Under the pieces are notes generated by a model. The model was not told where the DNA came from and made no database searches. It saw only the letters and a list, made by a program, of their open reading frames with translations. Positions 3,370 through 27,181 of a DNA stretch of 64,000 nucleotides are shown piece by piece. The first letter of the stretch is position 1, and each line of letters starts with the position of its first letter. The stretch spans positions 1 to 64,000 of the forward strand of contig JAIOPP010000036.1 in NCBI GenBank assembly GCA_021413845.1, written 5' to 3'. Both the position numbers and the translations under genes were made by a program. This DNA is from Planctomycetia bacterium (GTDB lineage Bacteria > Planctomycetota > Planctomycetia > Pirellulales > PNKZ01).

Positions 3370-3732
3370 ATACCGCTACGGTGGGTGGATCGATCTTTGT
3401 AGCTATGGGGTCCAATGTTCGGTTCGTGATGGTCGAGAAATCAACTTCGATAGTCATGTCATAAACGCCTCCTTTTCAGTTGCGAATCTGAACGAATCGG
3501 TATGCACCGTTGGGACAAGCCGGTTCTGCAAATGGCCTCAAATCCTCGGCGGTCAGTTTTTTCCTTTCAATTTTTTGAGTTATCTCGGAAGGCTGCGAAT
3601 AATCCTCGTGCATAGGTCGGAGCCGGCTACTCCGCCCCCAACACATCTCACGCAGGTCATTCGACGGCGCTCCGGGTATTTCGGCTTCGGTTCTCGCATC
3701 CTCATACCTGGAAAGAGTAGGGACGGTTCGGC
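3370..3732 (+). other. Gene-free stretch inside the pil cluster
   Basis: 363 bases between pilB copy 1 and pilT. I see no convincing reading frame, RNA gene or strong hairpin; the composition is mixed, with T-rich runs near 3558-3575 and a purine-rich stretch (GGAAAGAG, about 3710-3717) before pilT that can serve as its ribosome binding site. It could hold a promoter for pilT and the genes after it, but no good -35/-10 pair stands out. Confidence 0.4.
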
Positions 3733-4824
3733 ATGGGCACGATTCTCATCGACAAATTGTTGCAGACCGTCGTCAATCAAGGGGCGAGCGATCTCCATAT
3801 CTCCGTAGGCCAACCGCCGGTCATTCGTTTGCATGGCCGGATGCGTCGTTTAGAGACGAAGTCGTTGACGGCCGACGACACCGTGGCGCTGATGAAGAGC
3901 ATCACGCCCGAGCGCTGCCAAACCGAGCTTCAGGAAGCGGGCGGTAGCGACTTCGGTTTCTCTTTCGGAACGCAAACTCGCTTTCGCGTTTCGATCTTCA
4001 AACAGCGCGGCTTTATCGGGATGGTGCTGCGGCAGATCCCGAATAAGTTTATGTCGATGGAAGACCTAGGGCTTCCGCCGGTCTGTAAAGACTTGATTAA
4101 TCGCCCTCGCGGTTTGTTTTTGGTGACCGGGCCGACCGGTTCCGGCAAGACGACCAGCCTCGCGAGCATGATCAATTGGCTCAACGAAAACACCGATCGC
4201 CACATCATTACGATCGAAGATCCGATCGAGTTTCAGCACGAACATAAGAAATCGACGGTCAATCAACGCGAAATCGGCGTCGATGTCGGTTCGTTCTCCG
4301 AGGCGATCCGCCGTGCTCTGCGGCAAGATCCCGACGTAATCCTCGTCGGTGAAATGCGCGACTTGGAAACGATCGAAGCGGCGATCACGGCCGCCGAAAC
4401 CGGCCACGTCGTGTTCGGCACGCTCCACACGACCGGTGCTCAAGGAACCGTCAACCGAATCATCGACGTGTTCCCGACCAATCAGCAGGAGCAGATCCGT
4501 ACTCAGCTTTCGACGGCGATCATCGGTGTGCTTTCGCAAACCTTGGTGCCGAAGATCGGCGGCGGCCGACGCGGCGCTTATGAAATGCTCGTCGTATCGC
4601 CGGGCATCGCGAACCTGATTCGTGAGAACAAAACGTTCCGCATCAACTCGGCGATCCAGACTGGTGCGAAGGTCGGAATGCGATTGATGGATGATTCGCT
4701 TTACAACCTGTGGCGAAAGGGAGACTGCACGAAGGAAGATGTTATCGAACGATCCGTGTATCCCGACGATCTAGCCGCTCGCATCACGAAAGCCGAGCGA
4801 GGCGTTTTCGACGACGAGGAATAA
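3733..4824 (+). CDS. pilT: Twitching-motility retraction ATPase PilT
   Basis: A 363-residue ATPase of PilT/PilU type, which drives pilus disassembly and retraction. The N-terminal PAS-like domain has the family start (GASDLHISVGQPP, about residues 18-30). The RecA-like domain carries Walker A GPTGSGKTT (about 133-141), Asp-box residues in TIEDPIEF, Walker B-like ILVGEMRD and the TLHTTGA His-box. It lacks the GspE zinc-cysteine motif and the MshEN domain, separating it from the PilB copies on either side. A retraction ATPase suggests the cluster makes a dynamic type IV pilus rather than only a secretion pseudopilus. The start ATG follows a GGAAAGAG purine stretch. Confidence 0.95.
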   Translation: MGTILIDKLLQTVVNQGASDLHISVGQPPVIRLHGRMRRLETKSLTADDTVALMKSITPERCQTELQEAGGSDFGFSFGTQTRFRVSIFKQRGFIGMVLRQIPNKFMSMEDLGLPPVCKDLINRPRGLFLVTGPTGSGKTTSLASMINWLNENTDRHIITIEDPIEFQHEHKKSTVNQREIGVDVGSFSEAIRRALRQDPDVILVGEMRDLETIEAAITAAETGHVVFGTLHTTGAQGTVNRIIDVFPTNQQEQIRTQLSTAIIGVLSQTLVPKIGGGRRGAYEMLVVSPGIANLIRENKTFRINSAIQTGAKVGMRLMDDSLYNLWRKGDCTKEDVIERSVYPDDLAARITKAERGVFDDEE

Positions 4825-4896
4825 GCAAACGCGAATTGAGCTACAGATGGTCCGCAAGACTCGAACTTCGATTAGTCCGTGTAAGAAGATTTGAAG

Positions 4897-6612
4897 ATGG
4901 CATTCAAACGAATCGGTCAGATTTTCGTCGACCGAAAATTCATGACTCGCGATCAGCTCGAGATGGTGCTCGAAGAGCAACGCTCGCGGCCGGGGGAATT
5001 GCTCGGCAAGATCGCCGAAGAAATGAATTTGATTACCGACGAGCAGCTTGTCGAAGCGCTCGCCGAACAGATGGGAATGCCCGCCGTTGCGCTGGGCGAA
5101 ATCACGATCCCGATCGAGGTTTTGGCGCACGTTACCGAACCGATGGCGACGTTGTACCGGATCATTCCGTTGAGCTTTCGCGACGGCGTTTTGACGATCG
5201 CGATGTGCGATCCGCAAAAGCTGCAGATTCTCGATGAGTTGCGCAATTTTCTCGGCTATGAAATGCGCGGCGTCGTGGCTTCGGAGCGAGAAATTCAGCA
5301 AGCCCTGACGCGTTATTATTCGACTGCGGAAAGCGTCGAAGACATCATCGGCGATCTCTCGGGCGACTCGGAACTGATGGCTGCGCTGGAAGGGGCAAGC
5401 CGCGAAGGGGCCTACGATCTGACGAAGTCGGAAGAGCTTGCCGATAGCGCGCCGGTTCGCAAGCTGCTCAACATGATCATGCTGTTGGCGATCAAGGATC
5501 GTGCGAGCGATTTGCACTTCGAGCCGTTTGAAGACGAATTCAAAGTCCGAATCAAAGCCGACGGCGTGCTCTATGAAATGGTGCCGCCGCCGAAGCACTT
5601 GGCATTCGCGATTACGACGCGCATTAAGGTGATGGCGAACCTCGATATTGCGGAGCGCCGGTTGCCGCAAGACGGACGCATCGAATTGACGATCGGCGGT
5701 CATCCCGTCGACTTGCGCGTGTCGGTGCTCCCGACGATGTTCGGCGAGAGCGTCGTTATGCGGGTACTCGATCGCTCGGCCGTGAAGCTCGACCTGGAAG
5801 GGGTCGGGATGTCGCCCGAGACATTGCGGAGCTTCCGTGAGGTGATCGAAAAGCCGAACGGCATCGTGCTCGTTACCGGTCCGACGGGATCGGGGAAGAC
5901 GACGACTCTTTATTCGGCGATCAGCGAGTTGAACGAAATCGCCGATAAGGTCATCACGACGGAAGACCCGATCGAATACGATATCGACGGCGTCATTCAG
6001 GTGCCGATCGATTCGACGATCGGAAACACCTTCGCCAATTGCCTCCGGGCGATTCTACGGCAAGATCCCGACATCATCCTCGTCGGTGAGATTCGCGATC
6101 CCGAGACCGCGGAAATCGCCGTGCAGGCTTCGCTGACCGGGCACATGGTGTTCAGCACTTTGCATACGAACGATGCCCCGAGCTCGGTGACGCGGTTGCG
6201 CGATATGGGTGTGCCGCCGTTCTTAATCACGGCGACGGTCGAAGCGATTTTGGCGCAGCGCTTGGTGCGGCGCGTTTGCCAAAAGTGCCGACACGAAGTG
6301 AAGGCGAGTATGGATTTGCTCGCTGAACTTCAACTTACGCCCGACGACATCATGGGAAAGAAATTCTATCGCGGCGTCGGGTGCGATGTCTGCAACGGCA
6401 CCGGTTACAAAGGACGGGTCGGGCTGTTCGAGTTGATGATCTTCAACGACGACCTGCGCGAAATGGTGATGCGCAATGCATCGACGGACGAATTGCGCGA
6501 CAAGGCTCGTAGTTACGGAATGGTAGCGCTTCGCGATGCCGGTTTGGAATTCGCATATCAAGGTTTAACGACGATCGAAGAGGTAGTGCGCGAAACGGTG
6601 CTTGAAGGTTAA
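4897..6612 (+). CDS. pilB: Type IV pilus / type II secretion assembly ATPase (PilB/GspE), copy 2
   Basis: A 571-residue paralogue of the ATPase at 1681-3369. I start it at the ATG at 4897 (MAFKRIGQIFVD), just after AAGAAG; a TTG six bases upstream is possible. N-terminal MshEN-type domain, then ATPase with Walker A GPTGSGKTT (about 327-335), ILVGEIRD, the TLHTND box and a zinc site formed by CQKC and CDVC near the C terminus. Codon use is uniformly G/C-rich, unlike the last third of copy 1. Two PilB-type motors around a PilT suggest either two alternative extension motors or a mixed motor; the sequence alone cannot decide. Confidence 0.95.
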   Translation: MAFKRIGQIFVDRKFMTRDQLEMVLEEQRSRPGELLGKIAEEMNLITDEQLVEALAEQMGMPAVALGEITIPIEVLAHVTEPMATLYRIIPLSFRDGVLTIAMCDPQKLQILDELRNFLGYEMRGVVASEREIQQALTRYYSTAESVEDIIGDLSGDSELMAALEGASREGAYDLTKSEELADSAPVRKLLNMIMLLAIKDRASDLHFEPFEDEFKVRIKADGVLYEMVPPPKHLAFAITTRIKVMANLDIAERRLPQDGRIELTIGGHPVDLRVSVLPTMFGESVVMRVLDRSAVKLDLEGVGMSPETLRSFREVIEKPNGIVLVTGPTGSGKTTTLYSAISELNEIADKVITTEDPIEYDIDGVIQVPIDSTIGNTFANCLRAILRQDPDIILVGEIRDPETAEIAVQASLTGHMVFSTLHTNDAPSSVTRLRDMGVPPFLITATVEAILAQRLVRRVCQKCRHEVKASMDLLAELQLTPDDIMGKKFYRGVGCDVCNGTGYKGRVGLFELMIFNDDLREMVMRNASTDELRDKARSYGMVALRDAGLEFAYQGLTTIEEVVRETVLEG

Positions 6613-6695: not shown

Positions 6696-8021
6696 ATGCC
6701 TACGTTCCAATTCGAGGCGATGGATCCGACCGGCAAAGAGATCAAGGATGTGATCGAAGCCGTGAACGAGGAGGAAGCCCAGGCGACGATTCGCCAAATG
6801 GGCTACTACGTCACGAAGATCTCGGCGAAGAAGGTCCGAAAAGGGGCCGCGAAGAAAAGCGATAAAGGAAAGAATCGCAGCTTCGTGATCGGTGGTGTGA
6901 AGTCGAAAGATCTCACGACGTTTACTCGCCAATTATCGATCTTGCAGGACGCCGGTTTGCCGATTCTGCGCAGCCTGAAAATCTTGGAGACTCAGTCGAA
7001 GCCCGGCAAGCTCAAGAATTCATTGATGGACGTTTGCGAAGATATCGAATCCGGGTCGACGTTGTCGGAATCGATGTCGAAGTGCCCAAAGGTGTTCGAT
7101 CGCTTGTACGTCAACATGATCAAAGCGGGAGAAGCGGGCGGTGCGTTGGAAGTGATCTTGCGCCGTCTGGCAGAGTTTCAAGAAAAGTCGCAATCGTTGA
7201 AGCGCAAAGTCAAAGGGGCGATGGTTTATCCGGTCGTCGTCGTGCTTGTGGCCGTCGGCATTTTGGTCTTTATCATGATCAAGATCGTGCCTGCGTTCGA
7301 GAAGATCTTCAAAGACTTCGATGCCGAACTTCCCGGCATGACGCAATTGCTCATCAACTTGTCGAACTGGGTAGCCAACTACTGGTTTCTCATACCGTTG
7401 TTTCCGATCTCGATCGTGTTGATGGTGAAGTTGATTTGTAAATTCAAAGCCGGCCGTATGGGCTGGCATTTATTTACCTTGAAGTTTCCGGTCTTCGGGC
7501 AGATCGTCGAAAAGAACATCGTCGCTCGCACGACGCGCACGTTGGGGACGTTGGTGTCCAGCGGCGTGCCGATTCTCGAGGCGCTCAATATCACGCGCGA
7601 AACGAGCGGCAACGCCGTATTCGAACAACTCTACGGCCGCGTTTACGACTCCATTCGCGAAGGAGAATCGATCGCCAAACCGATGCGCGATTACTCACGC
7701 ACGAAATTCAACATCATCGCCGCATTCTTTTGGGTTGCGTTCGTACCGGTCGTCGGCATCTTGATTTACATCATGCGGGCCACGCAGCGCATCATCGACG
7801 ATCTCGTGGTCAATATGATCGACGTCGGCGAAGAAACGGGCGAACTCGATAAGATGCTTTATAAAGTCGCCGACAACTACGACGAAGAGGTCGATGTATT
7901 GACGGAAAGCCTTGTCAGCTTGCTCGAGCCGTTGTTGATCGTGGTGTTGGGAGTCATGGTCGGCTTTATCGTGATCGCATTGTTCTTGCCGCTGGTCGCG
8001 CTGATTCAAAAGTTGAGTTAG
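6696..8021 (+). CDS. pilC: Inner-membrane platform protein PilC/GspF, with an extra membrane segment
   Basis: A 441-residue polytopic protein on which the ATPases act. N-terminal cytoplasmic region (about 1-65), then two T2SSF domains; the first is marked by LSILQDAGLPILRSLKIL and ends in a membrane helix at about 170-193, and the protein ends in a hydrophobic helix at about 410-433. In the second T2SSF domain, between the helix-rich start and the conserved VVNMIDVGEETGELD, there is an additional hydrophobic stretch IIAAFFWVAFVPVVGILIYI (about 333-352) that ordinary PilC/GspF lacks. It should add a membrane pass or re-entrant loop. Follows pilB copy 2 by 83 bases. Confidence 0.93.
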   Translation: MPTFQFEAMDPTGKEIKDVIEAVNEEEAQATIRQMGYYVTKISAKKVRKGAAKKSDKGKNRSFVIGGVKSKDLTTFTRQLSILQDAGLPILRSLKILETQSKPGKLKNSLMDVCEDIESGSTLSESMSKCPKVFDRLYVNMIKAGEAGGALEVILRRLAEFQEKSQSLKRKVKGAMVYPVVVVLVAVGILVFIMIKIVPAFEKIFKDFDAELPGMTQLLINLSNWVANYWFLIPLFPISIVLMVKLICKFKAGRMGWHLFTLKFPVFGQIVEKNIVARTTRTLGTLVSSGVPILEALNITRETSGNAVFEQLYGRVYDSIREGESIAKPMRDYSRTKFNIIAAFFWVAFVPVVGILIYIMRATQRIIDDLVVNMIDVGEETGELDKMLYKVADNYDEEVDVLTESLVSLLEPLLIVVLGVMVGFIVIALFLPLVALIQKLS

Positions 8022-8133
8022 TCACGGGATTCGATCGAGGGTTTGGTTCGGAAAACATTTCTCGTATTAGACGCGTTAGATTTCGGTCGTGCGACGATGT
8101 CCGCAGCGGTCGAGTTTTCAAGGAGATAGAGAC

Positions 8134-9327
8134 ATGGCGGCGCAGCAAAGTGAGTGGTTGGAAAACACAAGAATGCAAGTCGCGACCCAGAGGCGTCGCC
8201 GCGCCGCGAGCGGCTTCACGCTCGTCGAACTCCTCATGGTGATCGCCATTATCGGCACGCTGATGGCCATGCTCAGCGTGGCGGTGTGGAAAGTGCTCGA
8301 TTTTGCGAAGCAAGGCAGGATCATCGTCGAAATACAGCAGTTGCAATCGGCGATGCAAGCGTACAAGGAAAAGAGCATTCAATATCCTCCTTGCCTCGGC
8401 GAGGCGCAGGACACTACCGCCAATCTCAATATTAGAAAAGTGCATTTTATGCGGCATATTCAAGCCGCTTTCGCGAACGCCAACTACGGCCCGACCGCGG
8501 GTAACTTCGACACGCTTCGAAATCAAATCGCATCGACAGCTTTCGGCACCGGAACGCAGATCTACCGCTATAGAAAAGCAGTAGGAACTATCACGGCTCT
8601 CGATCTCAATACGTTGGACCAAGCCGAGGCACTTGTCTTTTGGCTCGGAGGAATGCCGACTCCCGTCGATGGGACTACCGGACTTCCTATCGTCGCGAAT
8701 CGGCTCTTCGGTTTTAACCGAGATCGAGATAACCCCTTCCGTCGCGATTCTACGGCGCAAGAACTGGTCGACGCGATGCGGTTTCGTACGGACTCGTTAT
8801 TCGACTTCGTGCAAGATCGCTTGATCGACAACGATGACGACGGGTGGTTGGAGTATTCACCGACGAGTTATCGCGACGGAGAGTATTCGGCCCCTTACGT
8901 GTACTTCGATGCTCCCACTTATGTAGCTTCGACGACCGCGCCGGGAGTTTTGCCTTTCAATATTCCCAATCTTACCGGCTATCCTCGTTCCGGCGAGTTG
9001 TTGGCAGCTACTTTCTCCAATAGATGGGGGATGGCCGTTCCCATGGCGGACGTGTATGTGTCGGGTACCAAAACCCCGATTCGATGGAAGCGTCCTGAGA
9101 GTTTTCAGATCATTGCTCCCGGAAAAGATGGAATGTATTCGACCCCGACGAATGTTACTTCCAATGACCTGTCGACATTGATGCGTATGCCTCTTTTTCC
9201 GTCAGGCGATACCTACTCGAAGGCGACTTCTTATACGGCGAAGACTTCGTATATGAACCAAGAGTTAGATAACCTGACGAACTTGGCGGATAGCACTTTA
9301 GACGAAGCTCGCCAGGCGGTGAGGTAA
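8134..9327 (+). CDS. Oversized type II secretion-type pseudopilin
   Basis: A 397-residue pseudopilin. I chose the ATG at 8134 because AAGGAG lies eight bases upstream; a GTG at 8089 is in frame. The leader ends at a prepilin peptidase site SG^FTLVELLMVIAIIGT (about 27-43) with Glu at +5, followed by the usual N-terminal helix. Classical GspG/H proteins have about 150-200 residues, so the soluble head here is about twice the normal size. It holds an aspartate-rich calcium-type loop DNDDDGWLEY near residue 232. First of five pseudopilins in the cluster; its stop is two bases before the next start, so they are cotranscribed. Confidence 0.9.
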   Translation: MAAQQSEWLENTRMQVATQRRRRAASGFTLVELLMVIAIIGTLMAMLSVAVWKVLDFAKQGRIIVEIQQLQSAMQAYKEKSIQYPPCLGEAQDTTANLNIRKVHFMRHIQAAFANANYGPTAGNFDTLRNQIASTAFGTGTQIYRYRKAVGTITALDLNTLDQAEALVFWLGGMPTPVDGTTGLPIVANRLFGFNRDRDNPFRRDSTAQELVDAMRFRTDSLFDFVQDRLIDNDDDGWLEYSPTSYRDGEYSAPYVYFDAPTYVASTTAPGVLPFNIPNLTGYPRSGELLAATFSNRWGMAVPMADVYVSGTKTPIRWKRPESFQIIAPGKDGMYSTPTNVTSNDLSTLMRMPLFPSGDTYSKATSYTAKTSYMNQELDNLTNLADSTLDEARQAVR

Positions 9328-9329
9328 CG

Positions 9330-10649
9330 ATGTTCGACTCTCGAAAAAGTCCGAAGCGTGAAAATCATCGGTATCGTGGCCGCCGCGGTTTCACGTTGAT
9401 TGAAATGCTCGTCGTGATCGCGATCATTGCGATTCTGACTTCGATTTTTCTTGGCGCGCTATCGTCGTCGGAGCGACTTGCGAAAGCTTCGCGCACGCGC
9501 GCTCTGATCCAAAAGCTGCATAACGTGATGATGTCCCGTTGGGATGCCTATCGCACGATACGATTGCCGATTTCATTGGAGTCCAACGGTGCCTCGGCGT
9601 CGGCAGGCTACGCGGGAAGCGAGTCGACTCGGTTTCGACAGGACATGGCTCGGCGCAAAATGCTCGCCCTGCGTGAACTGGTGCGAATGGAAATGCCGGA
9701 TCGATACGATGACATCCTCTTCGACTCGGCGAACTTCCCGGTGGTTTTGAAGTCGCCTTCGGGGGCGGCTATCCGTCCGTTCTTGTGGAGCGCTTATAAT
9801 CGTAAGATTCTTTCCGTGAAGGCAGGTTCGACCGATCCGACGGTTTCAGGCATGTCTTCCTCGCAATTCATCAAAATGCTTGCGGAGCGTTATCAGTCGG
9901 CCGAATGCTTGTACATGATCGTGACGCTCGGCGTCGAAGACTCCAGTACTTCGACGGAGCACTTTTCCGCGAAGGATATCGGAGACGCCGACAGCGACGG
10001 CATGTTCGAGTTCGTCGATGCTTGGGGTATCCCGATCGAATTCCTTCGCTGGGCGCCGGGCTTCATTTCACCGATGCAGCCGATGTACAGCTATCCGATA
10101 CCGGGTGCCGGTTCGTTCTTTGATGCTTCGAGCCAGCCTCGTGATCCCAGCAATCCCAACGCGGTGCTTAGTCATTGGAAGGTTCAGAACGAATACTTTA
10201 ACGATACGAACGCACCTGCCGGAGCACTTAGTCAGAGATGGGTAGTGATCGATCAAGACGACCCGTTCAACCCGATGCGCGTCGGTCCTACACCTGATAC
10301 GGTCGTTAACAAGGCATTAGTTAAATCGACTCGCTGGCAGCCGGGATATTCCGCGCCGGAACACGGTTTCATCCTCATTCCGCTGATCTATTCATGTGGG
10401 GGAGATTTCAAATCCGGAATCGACCATTGTTATGCGAGCGAAGGGTATACGCTCAAAACAAGTCCTACGGCAAGCTTAGGACCCATTAAAGACAGCGATC
10501 CTTACAATATCTACAAAAGCGCGACTGCGGACGGGAGTTTTCGCGGAACCAAGGTCGGCGGAGAACGTCTTGTCGTAGGCGAGGGGTACTACCCCGGGGA
10601 CGGAAATAGTCTTGATAACATTCACAATCAAGATATTGGATCGCGATGA
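9330..10649 (+). CDS. Oversized type II secretion-type pseudopilin
   Basis: A 439-residue pseudopilin starting at an ATG five bases after GAGG. The basic leader is cut before FTLIEMLVVIAIIAI (from about residue 22), with Glu at +5. The soluble part has a DADSDGMFEFVD loop (about 219-230) followed by AWGIPIEFLRW; a similar acidic loop exists in the preceding pseudopilin. The gene is wedged between its neighbours: two bases after the previous stop, and its TGA overlaps the start of the next gene in an ATGA. Role within the pseudopilus (major or minor subunit) cannot be assigned. Confidence 0.9.
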   Translation: MFDSRKSPKRENHRYRGRRGFTLIEMLVVIAIIAILTSIFLGALSSSERLAKASRTRALIQKLHNVMMSRWDAYRTIRLPISLESNGASASAGYAGSESTRFRQDMARRKMLALRELVRMEMPDRYDDILFDSANFPVVLKSPSGAAIRPFLWSAYNRKILSVKAGSTDPTVSGMSSSQFIKMLAERYQSAECLYMIVTLGVEDSSTSTEHFSAKDIGDADSDGMFEFVDAWGIPIEFLRWAPGFISPMQPMYSYPIPGAGSFFDASSQPRDPSNPNAVLSHWKVQNEYFNDTNAPAGALSQRWVVIDQDDPFNPMRVGPTPDTVVNKALVKSTRWQPGYSAPEHGFILIPLIYSCGGDFKSGIDHCYASEGYTLKTSPTASLGPIKDSDPYNIYKSATADGSFRGTKVGGERLVVGEGYYPGDGNSLDNIHNQDIGSR

Positions 10650-12082
10650 TGTACGAAGCTAGTTTGATTACGTTGCGAATCAAGCCTCAAGCCGGCCGCA
10701 AGCCCGCTGCGCAAATTCGATTACGGTCGGGTTTCACGTTGATGGAGCTGATGGTCGTTATCCTGATTCTACTTTCAGTGACGGCCGTTTCCATTCCCTT
10801 GGTGACTCCGGCATTGTCAGGTCGACAGGTGCGTGAAGGAGCTCGGATGGTGAGCACCTTTTTTAATGCGGCTCGCAATCGAGCGATCGAAACGGGCCGA
10901 CCGGCAGGCGTGTGGATCGAGCGAATGCCGAGCATGCGAGAAGCGGCCTCGACCATGTACTATGCCGAAATTCCCCCGCTCTATTCCGGCGACTTTCTTG
11001 ATTCTCAAGTCGAGCTGTTTAATGTCAACGGCACCCCAAACGGCGATGTGATAAGTGGCGCGCTCTTTAAGGGAGAGAGCACCGACCCTACTTGTAAAGA
11101 TTGTTGGAATATCGTGGTGCCTCGTGGTAGGACGACATTCAATTCCGACGCGTGGGCGAGTCCCGACCCTAAGGATCAGCAAATCGTTCGTCCGGGCGAT
11201 TTGATCCAGATCGAAGGGAGTGATCTGCGTATTCCATTGAAGTCGGTAAGAATTAATTTCGGCAGTACAAGCGTCAGTACTCAGACGACACACTTGTGGT
11301 GGTATCTCTATCGCGGACGAAATTGCAATGCCGGCCCTGACGGAACTTACTCCGATGAACGGCGCATCGGCGGAGAATGGGTGATCAATTGGTTCGATCG
11401 AGCTTATAGCGTCGGTAGAGATGTGGTTCGCTCTACCACGAACTTTCCGATGAACCCGGGCGTCACCGGCTTGAAGTATAAGATTTATCGACAGCCTGTG
11501 AAGCTTCAGGCCGGATCGGTGAAGTTGCCGGAAGGAATCGTCATCGATCTCGGTTTTTCGGCAATTACGAACGGCACCACCACCGACCCGGGAATCCCCT
11601 TTCATCCCCGCTCGGAGATTGCGTCTCCTTACTACGGAGCCGAGGCCGTCCCGCAAGATGAAACTCCGGTCATTCTCGTCTTTTCGCCCGGCGGTCATGT
11701 CGAACGGTTGTATTTTCGCATGAAGGAAAACAACGCCGGAACGACGAATCTTCAATGGGTGTGGGGTGGGAACGAACCGTTCGGTCAAATTCATTTTCTG
11801 ATCGGAAAACTAGAAAAGATCCTGAAGGATGAGTATTTCAGCTCGGGATATACCGCGACCGACAATTTCAACATTCAAGTAAAAAAGAACTGGCTCGACC
11901 TTGAGAACATTTGGGTAAACGTGAATCCGCAAACGGGATTTATTTCAACCAGCCTCATCGATGAATTGAATACTAATGCGTATTTCCTTAGTACGGACAA
12001 GACGGTCGGTGCATCGAATCCGGCGAATATCGCAGCCACGCGATCTAATGCGCGCTACGGTCGCGTCATAGGAGGAAATTAA
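10646..12082 (+). CDS. Oversized GspH-like pseudopilin
   Basis: A 478-residue pseudopilin whose ATG overlaps the previous stop (ATGA), implying translational coupling; a second ATG follows directly. The leader is longer (about 28 residues) and ends at SG^FTLMELMVVILILLS, Glu at +5. The region after the helix (GRQVREGARMVSTFFNAARN) resembles the GspH/FimT class, in which early residues pack as an alpha spine before a beta-rich head. The head is much larger than the roughly 170 residues of GspH. Third pseudopilin in the tandem. Confidence 0.88.
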   Translation: MMYEASLITLRIKPQAGRKPAAQIRLRSGFTLMELMVVILILLSVTAVSIPLVTPALSGRQVREGARMVSTFFNAARNRAIETGRPAGVWIERMPSMREAASTMYYAEIPPLYSGDFLDSQVELFNVNGTPNGDVISGALFKGESTDPTCKDCWNIVVPRGRTTFNSDAWASPDPKDQQIVRPGDLIQIEGSDLRIPLKSVRINFGSTSVSTQTTHLWWYLYRGRNCNAGPDGTYSDERRIGGEWVINWFDRAYSVGRDVVRSTTNFPMNPGVTGLKYKIYRQPVKLQAGSVKLPEGIVIDLGFSAITNGTTTDPGIPFHPRSEIASPYYGAEAVPQDETPVILVFSPGGHVERLYFRMKENNAGTTNLQWVWGGNEPFGQIHFLIGKLEKILKDEYFSSGYTATDNFNIQVKKNWLDLENIWVNVNPQTGFISTSLIDELNTNAYFLSTDKTVGASNPANIAATRSNARYGRVIGGN

Positions 12083-12084
12083 AG

Positions 12085-13539
12085 ATGACGACGGCCTTTC
12101 GAAATTCCGCTCGACCTCGTTTCAGTAGCGTACGCCGCGGGGTGACGTTGCTCGAAGTTCTGGTCGCGATGGGAGTCATGATCGTAGGTCTGTTGGGCAT
12201 GGCGGCGTTGATTCCTTTGGGCCGTATGGAGCTTGTCGAAGCGGAAAAGCTCGACAACGCTTCGACGGTCGGTCGTTGGGCATTTCGCGACGTGACCATT
12301 CGAGGATATCTCCAGCCGGAAAATTGGATCGATCCCGCGAACGGCGAGCCGGTTTTCGGCCCAGGAGGGGGTGGCTACGATCTTGTTTCCGGAAGCATTG
12401 CTCCGATGAGAAGCTTCAAAATCAAAGGCGCTCCCAACGCGACCGTTCCCCCGTATGCACCGATCGTCATAGATCCGCTAATGATTGCGCCGCGAAAACT
12501 CTCGACTGCGAACGATCAGAAGCAGCGGGAGATTTGCGGTCTCTTTCCATATAGCTTGAATTTGCCCGGCGCTACGGCGGGAATGCCGGAACTGGCTGGG
12601 TTGGTGCCGAAGATCGCCCGCGTTTCCTTGCGAGCATTTCCTTCCGACATAACGGCACTTCCGGCGGCCCGGACGAAGCTCATCATGAATAGCGATGTGG
12701 CGAGCCGTTTCTTTCGCTCGACCGATGATTTGAATTTCCAGGTTCCTCAAGATACCACGCGTCGCCCGATTCAAATCTATTCGCAAACGAGTTCGTCGGA
12801 CACTTCCTTTTACACCAACGACGGCTATACGACCGAAACGCAATTGACGTCGAGTGTCGCTGCTCGGCAGTTTACGGGAGCTTATAGTTGGTTTCTCGTT
12901 GCCGAGCCGAGCTTAGCGGAGTTTTATTCTTCCGCGCCTAATGCACCTGCCATGGGAGGCCCCAACGCGTCTGCCGTCGGTATCCGACAATTCCGGGTTT
13001 GGGTAGTAGTGTGTCATCAGCGAATTCTTAACCCCGTAGCCGAGCAGTCGTTCACGGACCCGCAGGGTATCAGCGAACGGCTTGTTTACGTGGACTTCAT
13101 CGATCGTAATACCGCACGCATCCGAGTGAATGGAATTACCGATGAAGCGGCTGCCGCTAATGCACTCAACGTAAAAGCGAACCAATGGATCGCCGTCGTA
13201 GGGCGTTATAAAGAGCCGCTACTGGGTGACGACAATCGCTATGTCATGGAATGGTATCGCGTAAGCGGCGCTGCCGAGCGACCGACGCTTCTCCCGGATT
13301 CGCAATCGCAATGGTATCGAGAGGTAACGCTCGTCGGTCGCGAGTTCTCCGGACTCGGGTTTTCCTTCCTCGATGAAGATACCGACACGACGTACCCGGA
13401 TCTTGCTACGACGTTGGCGGGCAACACGGGCGATGTTCCGCTAATGACCGGGTGGGGAATCATCGTGTCCGGGGTGCGAGGAGTTTACGAGAAGTCGATT
13501 TATCTGGATCGCCCCTCTATTTATTCGGTTCGGTACTAA
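12085..13539 (+). CDS. Oversized PilV/GspI-like pseudopilin
   Basis: A 484-residue pseudopilin with a very good ribosome binding site (GGAGGAAA, 12071-12078). Cleavage is expected in RRG^VTLLEVLVAMGVMIVG (about residue 19 on), Glu at +5; the LLEVLVAM signature is that of PilV/GspI minor pseudopilins. The C-terminal domain of over 440 residues has no family I recognise. Its start follows the previous stop by two bases. It lies directly before the giant GspK-like gene, in the same order I-K found in many secretion operons. Confidence 0.88.
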   Translation: MTTAFRNSARPRFSSVRRGVTLLEVLVAMGVMIVGLLGMAALIPLGRMELVEAEKLDNASTVGRWAFRDVTIRGYLQPENWIDPANGEPVFGPGGGGYDLVSGSIAPMRSFKIKGAPNATVPPYAPIVIDPLMIAPRKLSTANDQKQREICGLFPYSLNLPGATAGMPELAGLVPKIARVSLRAFPSDITALPAARTKLIMNSDVASRFFRSTDDLNFQVPQDTTRRPIQIYSQTSSSDTSFYTNDGYTTETQLTSSVAARQFTGAYSWFLVAEPSLAEFYSSAPNAPAMGGPNASAVGIRQFRVWVVVCHQRILNPVAEQSFTDPQGISERLVYVDFIDRNTARIRVNGITDEAAAANALNVKANQWIAVVGRYKEPLLGDDNRYVMEWYRVSGAAERPTLLPDSQSQWYREVTLVGREFSGLGFSFLDEDTDTTYPDLATTLAGNTGDVPLMTGWGIIVSGVRGVYEKSIYLDRPSIYSVRY

Positions 13540-13672
13540 ATGCTTTCGTATGCCGATCGATAAAGATCGCTTCCTCGATCGAACTTGCGGCTACTCCATG
13601 CATCAAACAAATAACGATCCCATGCCGACGATGCGTCATGCAGGCGACGCGAATTTGCGGAGAAATCAGGAT

Positions 13673-16600
13673 ATGAATCGCCATCGGAACTTGAACGCGT
13701 ACCGGAGGCCGATCGTGCGCAACCTGCGAAGCCCTTCAAAGGGCGTCATCTTGCTCGTCATGCTCGGGCTCCTCTCGATCTTTACGCTGGTCGCGGTGAC
13801 CTTCGTCGTGTCGTCCGGTCATGCGCGTCGGGGAGCTGCGGCGGCATCGCGCGTCGAGCAAGTGGGCGATCCCTATGATGTGCTTTTAAACCAAGCGATG
13901 TTGCAGATCGCCCGAGGTTCGAACCATCCGCAATCGGCGATCGGGCATCATGGTCTGTTGGAGGATATGTACGGCAACTCCGACGCCGTATCGGGTTGCG
14001 TATACTTCGACCCCGACAACGGCTCCGTCGGCACAAGCATCTATTCAGGAGCGCCAAAATCGTCGCAGCGTTCGCAGTACAACGTTTCTGTTTCGGGCGA
14101 AAACTATTCTCCGCCGATGTTGATCGAAATCGGTGCCGTCAGTTTTGGCTGGGATCGCGAGCCCGGAATCGCGCTCGTAGACGACAACGGTAATTCAGTA
14201 GTGGATGACGTCGCCGAGAAGTTTGGCGGTAGCGACGGTAGTGACGATTGCTTCCTCGGGATGACAAGAGCCCATCCCGCCACGATGGGAATTCCTTTTG
14301 GGTCTTGGAGCTTGAGCTCCATGCCGATTATCGACAACGTCGACAACTTTTACGCCGGCCGCGTCATTACTTTCGTGACCGGAGAATGCGCAGGCCAAAG
14401 TTCCTATATCGTGCGCTCTAAGATCGCAACGGACGCGGATACCCCTACTGATTTTCGCACGGTGCTCTTCGTCAGCCCTGTCGGTACCGGGCACCAGCCG
14501 CAAAACGGCGATCGCTTCGTGATCAACGGTCGCCCCTTTAACGGGGCTGGAATCGGTTACAACCCATATCAAGTGGGCTCGGACGGGAAGCTAACGAGGA
14601 AAACCAACAAGGCGCTGTTGCGCGCATTGGATATGCCCTATAGCCCTAATTACATTTCCACGGCGGGGTACGGCTTCGACGAACTTGCCGATGATGTCGA
14701 TCCGGAGCCGATTGCGATGTTGCCGAATCCTACGGATAGCGGAATTCGCGACTATCTGAATCGCTACGCTTCCATCGTCGATGCCGACGAGGACTACGAC
14801 GCACCTGATGAACAGAATATGTTGTTGTCGTACACCGTGGCGACTACAACCGGATATAAAACACTCTTTCCGTCGCTTCACCGTCCCGATCTCATTCGGT
14901 ATCACACGAATGAGCATCACATCACCGATCATCATGGTCCGCGGTGGCTGGATGTCGCTCCCTATATCCGACGTCGCTATATTCTGCGTCCCGATCCTTC
15001 CGACCATTTCGACTATGTACAAGACCCGAGCGGCGATGGTTGGACCCCAGGCGAACCCTATACGGATGTAAACAAGAATAGGCAATGGGACGCATTCACC
15101 GTCGATAGTGCGGGGAATGTGGGGCCGGAAGAGCCTTATGAAGATCTTCCGACGAAGAACCAAGCCTACGATGTCGGAGACCGGAGTTTCTTCAATACCG
15201 GTTTCGATGCGATGGACGGCCCTTGGGATATCGACAACGACGGCGACGGTATTCCGGATAGCATCTGGGTCGATCTTGGTTCACCCGTATCGACGACTCC
15301 CGAAGGTCGTTTCGTGAAGCCGCTTTACGCCATTATGGTGCGCGACCTCGACGGCCGCATCAACGTCAACGCGCATGGCTCGCCGAAGCACTATACGCAT
15401 ATTCATAACGACGTTTATAAAGCGGAAGGGGCGTATACTCCTAAGAATCGTCCTGGTTTGAGTTCCGGAACAGGGAAGATCGTATCCGAAGAGCGCGTTC
15501 GGATGGGCATGCATACCTACGCGCTGAATCAAGACAAGATTGCAGACACAATTCCGTCCGTTGTGATCGTAAAAACGCATTCCACCGGCGAAATCGATAC
15601 CGACTTTCATAAGATGAGTCCGCAGGATGTCACGTTTAACCTCAACAAGCTCTTCGCTTTGTCGTATTACGGCGATAAGCCTGGTTCCAACTCCGGTCTC
15701 GCCGCCAAGGCCGCGTACCTGTTCGACCCGAGTTCGATAGGCGCTACCAGCGCTTCCACGACTTTTGATTACAGCAAAATCATTCGGGGATTCGAACCCG
15801 CCGTCGGCCAAGGTTATTCCGTCGCCGATATCAATATGGCGCAAATTCTCCCTGAGCTTCCAGCGCTCGGAGGCTTATTGCTGCCGACCGGTGGGTTGTC
15901 GGGATCGGGGCCATTCTATCGCATCAATTCCTATCGTCAGTTGTTGGAAGGGCAAGGCGATCACTCCGGAGATTCGGCTCCGAAGTTGGGGCGCTATGGC
16001 GAAGGACATTTACTCCGGCCGGACGGAGCGATTCCGGCGAACGATCCTTCAGGTTATTACCCGGGACTGGGGCTCGTTCCTCGCGCCGGAACGACCGACG
16101 TATTTATCCCGCGTAGGGATTATTACTCCGCTTGGAATGCCGATACGACGGCACCTTATTATGTGTCCACGGGGGCCCTGGTTCTCGATAAAACCGGTTC
16201 CGCAGGTGCCACATTAGCATCGTCGTTTTATCCTACTTCTAAGCCTCCTTACCGTGGCGACGACGACTACCCGCCTCTTCCGTTTACCAGCGAACGGCTC
16301 CAGAACTCGGTGTCGAACGTGAATTTCGTCTTAGGCTCCTCGGGTCGCAATTCATTCCGGCAAAGCGGTGAAACGGATTTCTTCGGCGATTACGGAACAC
16401 CTGGCGATTTCGATTCCGACGGTTTCGTTGCGCTCGATATCATGGGGAATCCCGTTTATGAAAAGATGGGCACGTTGTATGAAGACGTCGATGCCCCGAC
16501 GGAAATCAATTTAAATCGGCGCTATTTCGCTCAGACCTATTACGGTGCTACGGCGAATGTTACTACCACTGCCGGAAGGCCCATCACTGCCGATATCGAT

Positions 16601-19600
16601 GCACAGTACACGCCGGCCGAATTGGAGAGGTTGCTTCGGTTTCGCGATTCAGCAGCCGCGTCTCTACCCACGCGTTTGGCGACTTATGTGAGTAACACCG
16701 CCGAATATAGTGCTCGTTCGCTTACTTCGGAGAGTTGGGATATTCCTTGCCCGCACATCGCGCCGACACCGGAACTTTCCGATGGTCTGCGGGTATTGGG
16801 TTTGCCGCTCAACAATCCGTCGCTGGGAGACCTGTTGCGAGCCCGGTTCTTCCTAGCCACCGGAAAAACAACCCTTTCCGATGGAGCAGCGTTTCAAATT
16901 CAATCGGCAAAGTTGGCGACGATGGCTATGCGCAGCTATCGGCTTGCCACCGCCGATATCGGCACAGCTCCTTATACGAGCGGACAGTTAACTCCCGAAG
17001 CGCGCAAGCGGTGGCAGACTCGTTTGTTGCAGCCTGATCTGGGAATGGGCTTGAGAATGGATTTGAATGCTCCCTTCGGAAACGGCAACGACGACGATAA
17101 AAACACGGTCGTCGATGAACCGAATGAAATTCCCGGAACCACCGGTTACAACGAACCGCTCATGGGGTCGTCGGGGTCGACTTACTTAAATTTCGACGGT
17201 AACCGCGACGGCAATTCTCTTCCTGTTCAATTCGGCGAAGAAGCGAGGCAGCAATACGCCAAAGAGTTGTATTGCTTGATGATGTTGCTCGTCGACCAAA
17301 ACTACGTCGAACCGTTGCCGACTTCGGTAAACTCCCTCGGATCGGGTCCTGGTGCCGAAAGCGACACTGTTGGGAGGCTACCGACCTTAAAGGAGCCGAA
17401 CAAAGTATTCCCCGGTCTCCCCGACAATAAGAAAACGCAGCGCTGGCTCTTTGCTCGCAAGATTGCGCAATGGGCCGTGAATGTCGTCGACTTCCGCGAT
17501 CGCGACGCAATCATGACTCCCTTTGAATTCGATGTCGATCCTTTTTTCGATAACGACTCCCCTTCTGACACCGGTACGTTAAACCTCATGCAACCCGTGA
17601 GTAACGGCACTTGGGATGTCGACGGTTATCTGATCAAGAAAACATCGACCGGTGCCGTCGATCTCGCCGGCGACCCAGACATCAACCAGCCTTGGCGCGG
17701 ATTGGTTTGGGGATGCGAATATCCCGATCTCATCCTCACGGAAACGATCGCATTCCATGATCGGCGCACTCAGAATCTGCGCGGAGACACGACCGCCGGC
17801 AGCAGCCTCAGCGGCTTGATCTTCTCGCCTAAGAACGAACTCTCCGATACTTCTCCCGCTACCGTGCCTCCGATCACGCCTACCCCCGACCCGCATTGGG
17901 ATCAGCGTCGCGTTCCTCAAGGGACCGCGATGTTCGAGCTTTTCGCCACCGGCAATCGACACAACGCGGCGCTTCCTCGGGAACTGTATACGCCCGTCGG
18001 CAATGACTTGAAGCTTGATTTGGGACGGCTAGCCGGCCCCCCCACGACCGGCCCGACCGGGAGCGGTACGTGGTATCCCGTCTGGCGCCTGGCGATCACA
18101 AAGTCGCACACTCGGGGTGCGACTGATCCACTCGATCCGAATCTGAGCGTTGCCGAGCGCATCCAACAGTGGCCCGCAACCTGTTCGCTCGAACTCAACG
18201 ATCCGGGCCTGTCACTTCTGAGCTCGACCACGTTCAACAATGTTTACAGTTTGCCGATGGCGATCGAGCGCGTCGTCCATTTCTCGACGAAAGACCCGAC
18301 CAAAGTCAACATCGGTGCTGTCGCCGGTCTCAATCTCATCTCGACGACGATCGAAGTCTTCGCTAATCAATCAACCAATGCGTTAAGCGCCTTGTTGAGT
18401 CCCGGCGATTATGCGGTCATCGGCCCTTATCGTGCGTCGGTAGGAGGGCCGAAAAATATCACGACGATCGGCCGGACGGAAAAAAGAATGGTGCAACTCG
18501 TCGGGGGTGCGCCTAAGGATGTCGACTACACTCAGCCGCATGCGATCATCGATCTGGGAGATTTCGCCGCCGGTCGACCATTTCTGGCAACGAGCGTTAA
18601 CGGGGTCGATGAGTATCCGATTACCGGGCTTTCCTCCGGCTTGGGTAATCTTGTTAAGGCCCCCTCCGGCACCGGCGCTGTTGATAATTCTGCGCTCACC
18701 GCAGCCGCGCTCTTGGATGCGCAACAGATTCGCCCGCCGTTGGGAATTGCCGTCGGTGCCAAGATCGTCAATCCCGCCGCACCTCCTCTCGTCTTGGTTG
18801 CCACGACGCGGACGGTGGGGCTGAACGTTTCTGAGCCTATCACAAGCAATGGTCCGAATTTTTATTATCCCCCTCCGAACGTCCTTCGCTCTGACGATTG
18901 GTTAACAAGTCTGACGACGACGGATCAGTATAGTCCCGTGCTGGACATACCGCTCGATATGGATTGGGACGGCAAAACTCCGATCGCCGCTACGAATATA
19001 AATCCTAATCTTCCGGTGGATGTTTCGGATCAAACGATTCTCAATTACAAGACGGTCTTCTTGCAACGACTCGCCAATCCCTTACTGGATTGGCATCAGT
19101 ATGAGAACCCGTACTTAACGGTCGATTGGATGCCGATCGATCTGACGATTTTTAACGGCGAGCCATACTTCTTCAAGACAGGTTCGACGACGTCGGAAGT
19201 CGCTGGAAATCTTAAGTATTATGGCGAGCCCGGCATATCGGAATTTCGAAACCTAGACGCAACGGGGAACGTTTCGAATGCGATTCGCTTCGGTTCGCGC
19301 CAGCGCGGCGCTCCTCGGTTTCCGGTTCGCGGGCTTTATTCGCTGTTCGATCTTTGGTCGCAACCGAATTGGTTGGATCAATCGCCGGAATTCGATACCC
19401 GTCCGCCGTCGACCGGTAAAGTGTCGAATAGTCCGACCACGATTGCCGGGACGACGACTCTCTATAGCGACTATTACGCCGTCGGTCCGGTGAAGTGGCA
19501 GGATCCGCTCGACCATACGTTGGGCTATCTCAATCTCGGCTACCATGTATTGCGCGACTTGCCGAAAGAACCTACTCAGTCGCTTCAATTGGTGCCGGTT

Positions 19601-21613
19601 CGCGAGCCGATTCGCAGGCCTATGGGCACGGCCGGACCGACGACCGGTTGGTACACGGTAGCGGACGTAACCAAGGAAAATGATCGCTATATCGGTGCTC
19701 CACGCCGGCCGTTTAATTGGTTGACCTGGAACAATCGACCGTTTGCGGGATCGATGGAGCTCATGCTCGTGCCCGCGACGAGCCAAGCGCGGCTGATGCA
19801 TGAGTATTCGATGCGTAAAACGATCACGCCGACCGTTCCGTATAGCGGCTCAACTACGGTGACTTCCGATGCCTATCCGGGTAGGCTTGCGCCGTTCGAT
19901 GGTCGTCGTGCGGCGAACCACTATATGCCGAGCATACCGGTGCAGGGAAATACCAACTGGTACGTCGGAACCGGTGCCGAGGCGGCAACCCGAACAGGAA
20001 GAAATGCCGTTGGTTATTCCGTCACGGCGCCGTTTGCGCATCTGCTGAATTTTTTCGAGTCGTCGAAGTCCGTCGTGAGTGATTCGGCCTTGCCTAATTC
20101 GCAACTAGCGGCGAATTACTACCGGTTATTCGAGTTCGTGACCGTTCCTTCGCGATTTTCCGGCACCAAGACGATGCACCTTGCGGGCTCGTCGGGTACG
20201 GGCCGCAACAATGCGATGACTCCGCGGAGCGGTAGCGTGTCGGCTCCGAATGGAGGCGACTACGAGCACTACGGCTGGCCGTTCACGGCACCTTTCAATT
20301 ACATTCCGCTCTACCGCGAGCCCGGGCGGATCAATATCAACACGATCATTCCTCTCACGGAGCGTGGAGTCTCGCCGGGAGGTACGCATCCGACTGAACG
20401 GACCAGCGACAACGGTGCGGCCATTTGGCGCTCGGTGACGAACGACTTCCATCCGAGCGTTCGTTGGCTAGTTGCGGTCGATGGAGCCGGCCAAAGCGGC
20501 GCCGCCGCCCTTCACTTCGACGCGTCGAATATTTATCGAGCCCGCGATATGGTTGGTGCGACGAAGTTTCAGCAACATAAATACTTTTTCAACCCCAGCG
20601 AAGATTACTCGGATAATTTTTACTCCGCGTTCGCGAGTATGTTCAGCGACAACCCCATTTACGACCCACGTGGGACGGACGGGGCGTTCGGCGCTGACGA
20701 TCCCAAAAGCACCAATAATCCCGTAACCGATAATAGAGACGATGCATTTAACGAACCGTTTGCGGATTTCGCCACGAGCTCAGGTAAATCGCGCCATGAT
20801 AAAAGCCGTATTTCTTTGTTCACGAACCCCTTCCGATCGTTTATGTCGGACTATTCCGATGTGATCCCAAGCGGGAATAAGCATCTCTCCTCGTCGGGAG
20901 ATTCGCTCTTGGCAGTCGATGCCACGCTCTTGCGGCGTCGCGATACGACGTGGTCGCCGTGGAACACGAACTGGATGCCGACTTCCGCCGATAGTAATAA
21001 TCCGACGGATGGCTTTGAAACAGCTTCTACGACGGGGCCTTCGAATAAGCTCTTTACTCCTGCGCAAATCGACCCGCGTTTCGACCCCATGTTTACCCTG
21101 AACTATCCGCGGCCGTTCCGGCAGCCGGGCCTTACCGGTCCGGCATGGTGGCAGCATTCGGGATATTCATCTCCGTTGATCGATGCGCGCTTGGGAGTCG
21201 ATACGACTTACGGCGGCACGGCCATCCCAACGATGCGGGTCAGAGATACCGACTATCGCAATACCGATCGAAGCCCGTTCTTTCGATACCAAATGTATAC
21301 GAAGCTTAGTAACACGGTTACGACTCGATCGAACGTATACGCGATCTGGGTTACCGTAGGCTATTTCGAGTGCGAACGGGTAAATCCGAACGGACCAACG
21401 CCTCCGGTGCAAACTAAATTCAGTAATGAATATAATCCGAAGCACCGCTATCCGGACGGTTTCCGCATCTTGAGAGAGATGGGAAGCGATAGCGGCGAAG
21501 TTCAGCGACATCGCTCATTCGCGATTTTGGATCGCACGATCCCGGTTGGATTTCTGCGTGGCGAGAATTTGAATGTCGAGCGAGCATTCATCGTCAAGCA
21601 TGTTCTCGACTAG
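13673..21613 (+). CDS. Giant GspK/PilX-like minor pseudopilin
   Basis: About 2646 residues if begun at the ATG at 13673, which has GGAG ten bases upstream; an in-frame ATG at 13550 would add 41 residues but lacks a binding site. The N terminus is a basic leader and helix KG^VILLVMLGLLSIFTLVAV with no Glu at +5, as is usual for GspK. The exported part carries GspK-like GRIN-N motifs (DGRINVNA near residue 560, GRININT near 2216), a related MDLNAPF near 1127, and repeated NLN..YYG segments near 651 and 943. Acidic loops DNDGDGIPDS (about 521) and a DEPN motif (about 1145) suggest calcium sites. Normal GspK has about 320 residues. It is reminiscent of Verru_Chthon cassette protein A. Confidence 0.82.
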   Translation: MNRHRNLNAYRRPIVRNLRSPSKGVILLVMLGLLSIFTLVAVTFVVSSGHARRGAAAASRVEQVGDPYDVLLNQAMLQIARGSNHPQSAIGHHGLLEDMYGNSDAVSGCVYFDPDNGSVGTSIYSGAPKSSQRSQYNVSVSGENYSPPMLIEIGAVSFGWDREPGIALVDDNGNSVVDDVAEKFGGSDGSDDCFLGMTRAHPATMGIPFGSWSLSSMPIIDNVDNFYAGRVITFVTGECAGQSSYIVRSKIATDADTPTDFRTVLFVSPVGTGHQPQNGDRFVINGRPFNGAGIGYNPYQVGSDGKLTRKTNKALLRALDMPYSPNYISTAGYGFDELADDVDPEPIAMLPNPTDSGIRDYLNRYASIVDADEDYDAPDEQNMLLSYTVATTTGYKTLFPSLHRPDLIRYHTNEHHITDHHGPRWLDVAPYIRRRYILRPDPSDHFDYVQDPSGDGWTPGEPYTDVNKNRQWDAFTVDSAGNVGPEEPYEDLPTKNQAYDVGDRSFFNTGFDAMDGPWDIDNDGDGIPDSIWVDLGSPVSTTPEGRFVKPLYAIMVRDLDGRINVNAHGSPKHYTHIHNDVYKAEGAYTPKNRPGLSSGTGKIVSEERVRMGMHTYALNQDKIADTIPSVVIVKTHSTGEIDTDFHKMSPQDVTFNLNKLFALSYYGDKPGSNSGLAAKAAYLFDPSSIGATSASTTFDYSKIIRGFEPAVGQGYSVADINMAQILPELPALGGLLLPTGGLSGSGPFYRINSYRQLLEGQGDHSGDSAPKLGRYGEGHLLRPDGAIPANDPSGYYPGLGLVPRAGTTDVFIPRRDYYSAWNADTTAPYYVSTGALVLDKTGSAGATLASSFYPTSKPPYRGDDDYPPLPFTSERLQNSVSNVNFVLGSSGRNSFRQSGETDFFGDYGTPGDFDSDGFVALDIMGNPVYEKMGTLYEDVDAPTEINLNRRYFAQTYYGATANVTTTAGRPITADIDAQYTPAELERLLRFRDSAAASLPTRLATYVSNTAEYSARSLTSESWDIPCPHIAPTPELSDGLRVLGLPLNNPSLGDLLRARFFLATGKTTLSDGAAFQIQSAKLATMAMRSYRLATADIGTAPYTSGQLTPEARKRWQTRLLQPDLGMGLRMDLNAPFGNGNDDDKNTVVDEPNEIPGTTGYNEPLMGSSGSTYLNFDGNRDGNSLPVQFGEEARQQYAKELYCLMMLLVDQNYVEPLPTSVNSLGSGPGAESDTVGRLPTLKEPNKVFPGLPDNKKTQRWLFARKIAQWAVNVVDFRDRDAIMTPFEFDVDPFFDNDSPSDTGTLNLMQPVSNGTWDVDGYLIKKTSTGAVDLAGDPDINQPWRGLVWGCEYPDLILTETIAFHDRRTQNLRGDTTAGSSLSGLIFSPKNELSDTSPATVPPITPTPDPHWDQRRVPQGTAMFELFATGNRHNAALPRELYTPVGNDLKLDLGRLAGPPTTGPTGSGTWYPVWRLAITKSHTRGATDPLDPNLSVAERIQQWPATCSLELNDPGLSLLSSTTFNNVYSLPMAIERVVHFSTKDPTKVNIGAVAGLNLISTTIEVFANQSTNALSALLSPGDYAVIGPYRASVGGPKNITTIGRTEKRMVQLVGGAPKDVDYTQPHAIIDLGDFAAGRPFLATSVNGVDEYPITGLSSGLGNLVKAPSGTGAVDNSALTAAALLDAQQIRPPLGIAVGAKIVNPAAPPLVLVATTRTVGLNVSEPITSNGPNFYYPPPNVLRSDDWLTSLTTTDQYSPVLDIPLDMDWDGKTPIAATNINPNLPVDVSDQTILNYKTVFLQRLANPLLDWHQYENPYLTVDWMPIDLTIFNGEPYFFKTGSTTSEVAGNLKYYGEPGISEFRNLDATGNVSNAIRFGSRQRGAPRFPVRGLYSLFDLWSQPNWLDQSPEFDTRPPSTGKVSNSPTTIAGTTTLYSDYYAVGPVKWQDPLDHTLGYLNLGYHVLRDLPKEPTQSLQLVPVREPIRRPMGTAGPTTGWYTVADVTKENDRYIGAPRRPFNWLTWNNRPFAGSMELMLVPATSQARLMHEYSMRKTITPTVPYSGSTTVTSDAYPGRLAPFDGRRAANHYMPSIPVQGNTNWYVGTGAEAATRTGRNAVGYSVTAPFAHLLNFFESSKSVVSDSALPNSQLAANYYRLFEFVTVPSRFSGTKTMHLAGSSGTGRNNAMTPRSGSVSAPNGGDYEHYGWPFTAPFNYIPLYREPGRININTIIPLTERGVSPGGTHPTERTSDNGAAIWRSVTNDFHPSVRWLVAVDGAGQSGAAALHFDASNIYRARDMVGATKFQQHKYFFNPSEDYSDNFYSAFASMFSDNPIYDPRGTDGAFGADDPKSTNNPVTDNRDDAFNEPFADFATSSGKSRHDKSRISLFTNPFRSFMSDYSDVIPSGNKHLSSSGDSLLAVDATLLRRRDTTWSPWNTNWMPTSADSNNPTDGFETASTTGPSNKLFTPAQIDPRFDPMFTLNYPRPFRQPGLTGPAWWQHSGYSSPLIDARLGVDTTYGGTAIPTMRVRDTDYRNTDRSPFFRYQMYTKLSNTVTTRSNVYAIWVTVGYFECERVNPNGPTPPVQTKFSNEYNPKHRYPDGFRILREMGSDSGEVQRHRSFAILDRTIPVGFLRGENLNVERAFIVKHVLD

Positions 21614-27156: not shown

Positions 27157-27181
27157 CGATCATCGACCTCGGAACCGGAAG

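Follow-up and report, generated by a model that had tools for sequence, protein, structure and literature searches.

The gene described here lies in a window of 64,000 nt (positions 1 to 64,000 of contig JAIOPP010000036.1, from a Planctomycetia bacterium of the order Pirellulales). It likely encodes a GspK-type minor pseudopilin (K) of a type IV filament machine, derived from an ordinary GspK ancestor by in-frame insertions and placed, presumably, as a cap with a binding role at the tip of the filament. K-type and modular minor pilins are already known; this one is enlarged by multiple insertions and belongs to a family near-universal in its class. The gene and its N-terminal signal are:

13673..21613, + strand: gene for the giant, a probable K-type minor pseudopilin; 2,646 aa when read from the favoured ATG
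13673..13834, + strand: class III leader (MNRH...SPSKG) and hydrophobic helix VILLVMLGLL, without Glu at +5; the helix matches the GspK profile (E 5.5e-6)

A single open frame runs from 13550 to 21613 on the + strand, 2,687 codons if counted from its first ATG. The ATG at 13673 appears to be the better start, since a Shine-Dalgarno-like sequence (GGAG/AGGAT) lies just 5' of it. Residue numbers given below are nonetheless those of the full-length frame (from 13550), about 42 higher than those of the first-pass annotation. That annotation was right about the size (about 2,650 residues, 2,646 from its start at 13673), which is no artefact, homologues being similarly large. It was also right about the motifs (GRINVN at aa 602, GRININ at 2259, RMDLNAPF at 1169, and NLN..YYG at about 693 and 985) and about the lack of Glu at +5 of the helix. 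The predicted cut after SKG leaves V at that position, and all 56 aligned giants have V, I, L, G or A there, never E; Glu5 is present in all five of the other prepilins in the cassette. The protein is acidic, with 0.3% Cys, and DxDxDG loops are enriched 9-fold relative to shuffled sequence, a pattern of extracellular proteins and fitting for one stabilised by calcium.

The giant is part of a cassette whose genes, from the PilB at 1681 to the J at 21679, are all on its strand:

1681..3369, + strand: PilB/GspE-type assembly ATPase (T2SSE, E 3.5e-132)
3733..4824, + strand: PilT retraction ATPase (TIGR01420, 445 bits, above its cut-off)
4891..6612, + strand: second PilB/GspE-type ATPase
6696..8021, + strand: PilC/GspF platform protein (T2SSF, E 2.2e-61)
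8089..9327, + strand: G-type pseudopilin, 412 aa, GFTLVE
9330..10649, + strand: second G/H-like pseudopilin (G2), 439 aa, GFTLIE
10646..12082, + strand: H-type pseudopilin, 478 aa (NCBIfam gspH, under cut-off)
12085..13539, + strand: I/PilV-type pseudopilin, 484 aa
21679..23565, + strand: J-type pseudopilin, 628 aa, GFTLLE (by prepilin motif and gene order)

G, G2, H and I lie directly upstream of the giant and J adjoins it on the other side, which places it among genes for G, H, I and J pseudopilins, as expected of a GspK. The upstream order G-G2-H-I is kept in most relatives. PilT is flanked by the two PilB/GspE-type ATPases (1681-6612). The five other pseudopilins are themselves oversized (412-628 aa, as compared to about 125-200 aa for GspG-J of E. 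coli K-12), and the whole pseudopilin set may therefore be enlarged.

A set of G, H, I, K and J pseudopilins is common to type II secretion systems (T2SS) and type IV pili (T4P). The giant might therefore be the K pseudopilin of a T2SS-like secretion system, its inserts serving to recruit or gate secreted substrates with no extracellular adhesion, and ordinary GspK does already have an alpha domain without known adhesive role (PMC8179133). This is unlikely, given that the cassette includes the PilT retraction ATPase and that the same genome has a GspK of standard type near a secretin, on contig C75. The latter protein (L229, C75:127387-127992) is a separate GspK, about 510 aa long, that contains three NxN motifs. 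Since it shares its contig with a secretin, the genome appears to have a separate T2SS, and the giant is probably not the K of the general one. Searches of the whole genome placed neither a secretin nor PilM on the contig of the giant. That the cassette has no secretin counts against reading the giant as the K of a type IV filament machine.

If the giant is an enlarged K, then the landmarks of GspK should be recognisable within it. Five can be placed, with inserts between them:

13997..15304, + strand: insert 1, helix to first NxN motif; 542 aa from cut to motif, 302-602 in 56 giants, about 100-145 in GspK
15305..15385, + strand: GspK landmark 1, GRFVKPLYAIMVRDLDGRINVNAHG (= GspK first NLN motif)
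15386..17455, + strand: insert 2, including the RMDLNAPFGNGNDDDKNTVVDEP acidic block; 707 aa here, about 35 in GspK
17456..17533, + strand: GspK landmark 2, ARKIAQWAVNVVDFRDRD (= GspK DWIDxDD helix); in the landmark chain in two of four settings
17528..19345, + strand: main part of insert 3, predicted all-beta module; for its compact form (L122 aa 655-1015) the model is confident, and no known fold matches it
19709..19798, + strand: GspK landmark 3, WNNRPFAGSMELMLVP (= GspK NGPF..ELLLV)
19799..20290, + strand: insert 4; 194 aa here, about 26-66 in most GspK
20291..20356, + strand: GspK landmark 4, PLYREPGRININT (= GspK second NxN motif)
20357..21265, + strand: insert 5; 330 aa here, 106-452 in 56 giants
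21266..21610, + strand: GspK landmark 5 and C-terminus, RSPFFRYQ...TTRSNVYAIWVTVGYFE...RHRSFAILDRTIPVGF; best conserved block

The C-terminal block (A2) has a mean column identity of 49%. Among the 56 giants, the distance from the first NxN motif to DFRD is 317-784 aa (about 35 in GspK), from DFRD to ELLLV 444-985 aa (about 37 in GspK), from ELLLV to the second NxN motif 92-223 aa (mostly 26-66 in GspK), and from there to the C-terminal strand 106-452 aa, the GspK lengths having been read off motif positions. All five intervals are longer than in GspK, and the extra length seems best explained by insertion into each of them.

The correspondence of the landmarks was assessed with a GspK profile built from 15 GspK sequences of the phylum plus that of E. 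coli K-12 (a search of plasmids for further GspK sequences gave mostly E. coli plasmids, which were left out). The hhalign E-values quoted are those of single comparisons. When this profile is compared to that of the giants, the helix is significant (E 5.5e-6), and beyond it lie sub-threshold matches to the first NxN motif, ELLLV, the second NxN motif and the C-terminus, all in GspK order. The aligned pairs (giant/GspK) are DLDGRxNxN/DESAKLNLN, NRPF..ELLLVP/NGPL..ELLLVQ, GRININ/GRININ and TTRSNVYAIW/TAAGHVYRAQ. I judged the order of matches by chaining them, leaving out the helix, under four settings, with 500 block-shuffled GspK profiles as the null. Of the 500 shuffles, 0-1 did as well as the observed chain or better in three settings, and 18 did so in the strictest. 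The DFRDAD/DWLDDD pair is part of the chain under two settings of the four. By themselves, the direct comparison and the chaining provide modest evidence of kinship.

A stronger indication comes from an intermediate, L193, a protein of 947 aa from the same phylum but outside the class, encoded in a cassette with the canonical order H-I-J-K. L193 matches the profile of the giants at the C-terminus (E 1e-9) and at the first GRLN region (E 3.6e-8), and it matches the GspK profile at the helix (E 1.3e-7), the C-terminus (6.3e-7) and the second motif (1.2e-4). The NCBI GspK model recognises it as well (E 3e-10). The landmarks (NLN1, DWxDxD, ELLLV, NxN2 and the C-terminal strand) thus occur in GspK order, single matches remaining sub-threshold except by way of L193. 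The same NCBI model matches at least 20 other open reading frames of the phylum longer than 1,000 aa, mostly at positions 1-110. The curated GspK/T2SSK models (NF037980, PF03934) match neither the window protein nor 24 members of its family, and they give sub-cut-off matches in relatives within the phylum. Several PF03934 hits in relatives are presumably to helix-hairpin-helix domains of other proteins. One apparent giant above the GspK cut-off (G129:C309, 1,516 aa) was not counted, as it is really a GspK of ordinary size that ends an over-long frame.

It might be argued that the giant is an unrelated surface protein that acquired a K-like class III signal helix, its NxN motifs being coincidental. 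The helix alone is clearly significant in the direct profile comparison, and neither a PDB fold nor a domain model matches the protein. This explanation is nonetheless improbable, since it accounts neither for GspK-ordered landmarks beyond chance, nor for an intermediate that matches both profiles at the C-terminus and the second motif, nor for the position in the operon. The first-pass annotation had proposed a GspK scaffold enlarged by insertion, and that proposal is upheld by the operon position proper to K, the missing Glu5, the five collinear landmarks and the 947-aa bridge.

The same annotation saw the recurring motifs as signs of internal duplication, in which case a GspK core would have grown by copying GspK modules, with GRIN-N as the mark of each repeat. 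The positions of GRIN-N at 602 and 2259, with the related RMDLN at 1169, invite the idea, but it is already largely refuted, and I consider it very improbable. Comparison of profiles with themselves gives no off-diagonal match better than E 0.27 for a compact member and 0.35 for the window protein, the two GRIN-N regions compared as profiles reach only E 0.49, and a Blast of the giant against itself, even at E 100, yields the full-length diagonal only. Moreover, ordinary GspK carries both NxN motifs once each (in E. coli K-12, CFNLN at 102 and INLNM at 215). The two GRIN-N motifs of the giant, by this comparison, are taken as GspK's own two motifs, one copy of each, and with no repeats at the profile level, internal duplication is unsupported. 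RMDLN belongs to a conserved acidic loop block. The pair of NLN..YYG segments looks like chance, since the first of them falls in a region missing from about three quarters of the homologues.

The structure of a compact member, L122 (aa 161-1360), was predicted by AlphaFold2 from 54 sequences, with a pLDDT of 70 and a pTM of 0.80. Searching the PDB with this model by Foldseek gave nothing significant. Third in rank (E 3.6) comes a chain of 295 residues from the XcpGHIJK pseudopilus, presumably the K subunit to judge by its length, and the match is suggestive only. For a pilin beta sheet interrupted by an inserted domain, as in GspK, this is the best pseudopilus hit. The main part of insert 3 modelled alone (361 aa, L122 aa 655-1015) is predicted to consist nearly entirely of strands (pLDDT 78.8, pTM 0.83) and has no match in the PDB or BFVD, nor in any family. 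Nor did the PDB yield a credible hit to a profile of the entire family or to one of the C-terminus. A lamin-tail-like domain, proposed for insert 3 from the pattern ELYNP..PVWRL..PGxYAVxGP, was dropped, having neither a Pfam nor a Foldseek match. Three giant K-like proteins from other planctomycete classes (L194, L197 and L236) have a possible LamG/concanavalin-like stretch (Laminin_G_3 at E 0.06 in L197), and the inserted or added modules may therefore differ by lineage.

Homologues of the giant are found in 37 of 40 genomes of the order Pirellulales and, with a profile of nine compact members, in 96 of 99 genomes of the class (main open reading frames of 1,369-3,082 aa). The gene is single-copy in nearly every class genome sampled and usually adjoins G, H, I and J pseudopilin genes. 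Beyond the class, this profile still matches weakly in 14 of the genomes sampled from the phylum. With a profile of the C-terminus, 213 loci come up in GTDB genomes; nearly all of the 80 listed belong to Pirellulales or other Planctomycetes. A Pfam/NCBIfam search of 24 members gave no credible match to a model anywhere, and a scan of genome contigs with the whole protein confirmed nothing. Being class-wide and without a Pfam or NCBIfam model, the family is old, conserved and unnamed, neither an assembly fault nor a one-off fusion. The range of sizes and cassette layouts in Planctomycetota points to an enlargement of K that is likewise old.

How the giant might function can be pictured by analogy with known filaments, where the minor pilins H, I, J and K together make up the tip complex from which assembly starts, the subunit without Glu5 being its cap (PMC10191384). 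The machine would comprise two PilB-type ATPases, PilT, PilC, the pseudopilins G, G2, H, I and J, and the giant K. An ordinary GspK would have received in-frame insertions in all five intervals between the helix, NxN1, DWxDxD, ELLLV, NxN2 and the C-terminal strands. After cleavage behind SPSKG by the prepilin peptidase, K, lacking Glu5, would take its place at the tip beside H, I and J and prime assembly of the filament, with the inserts projecting as binding or sensing modules. PilB would extend the filament and PilT pull it back together with the inserts on display. Location at the tip, binding or display (and with it a ligand), and retraction are all drawn from this analogy. What the data themselves show are the features of the sequence, how widely it occurs, the landmark order and the lack of repeats. 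Precedents exist for parts of the scheme: the alpha domain of GspK is inserted within its beta sheet, modular pilins bear adhesive modules (both PMC8179133), and PilC of S. sanguinis bears a lectin module (PMC9934059).

The giant resembles known GspK (NF037980, PF03934; 3ci0_K, 5vtm_X) in its Glu5-less helix, operon position, five ordered landmarks and C-terminal strands. It differs in being about 5-9 times longer, with insertions in all five intervals, in being missed by the curated models, and in having no recognisable helix-hairpin-helix after the second motif. Modular type IV pilins (PilB and PilC of S. sanguinis, PMC8179133, PMC9934059; ComZ) also combine a pilin with extra modules and are thought to sit at the filament tip, but their additions are C-terminal, whereas those of the giant lie inside the pilin fold at several points and contain no named domain. 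The census of modular pilins was based on the IPR012902 helix signature, and the most extreme case it names is a protein of 860 residues (PMC8179133). A census of that type would presumably miss the giant, since the Pfam N_methyl model does not match its helix. With the PilC/PilY1 tip adhesin (PF05567) the giant shares its proposed role, that of a large effector at the filament tip. PilC/PilY1 is not a pilin, and PF05567 is unmatched in 40 relatives, a control being equally silent. It is conceivable, though somewhat doubtful, that the near-universal giant K pilins of Planctomycetota replace PilY1 as the tip effector of T4P and that their inserts include beta folds absent from solved structures.

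With a K of 1,400-3,000 residues there are two possibilities: the tip complex can accommodate a very bulky cap, or the tip of the filament serves these bacteria as a main surface tool. The giant is a concrete candidate for surface attachment or sensing by Planctomycetia, and its inserts may be candidates for folds not seen before. No domain model exists for the family, and a core split by inserts is hard to detect by signature searches.

A likeness to Verru_Chthon cassette protein A (TIGR02600, 1,296 positions), raised in the first-pass annotation, is a weak lead. That protein is likewise large, has a K-like helix and, as the family name implies, belongs to a pseudopilin cassette, but the model is about half the length of the giant and does not match the window protein. 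Two relatives in the phylum do give matches to it, one N-terminal (E 2.4e-7) and the other, a marginal one, close to the C-terminus (E 0.04). In the literature available outside subscription, no paper was found on Verru_Chthon or TIGR02600, and Planctomycet and GspK were found together only in PMC8179133.

Directly downstream of the cassette (23600-28123, - strand) are genes for a MoxR-type ATPase, a DUF58-like protein and a transglutaminase-like protein, as named from their translations alone. Farther on (43412-45682, - strand) the window encodes a very repetitive protein of 757 aa with 19 YTV repeats (PF07639, E 5e-232).
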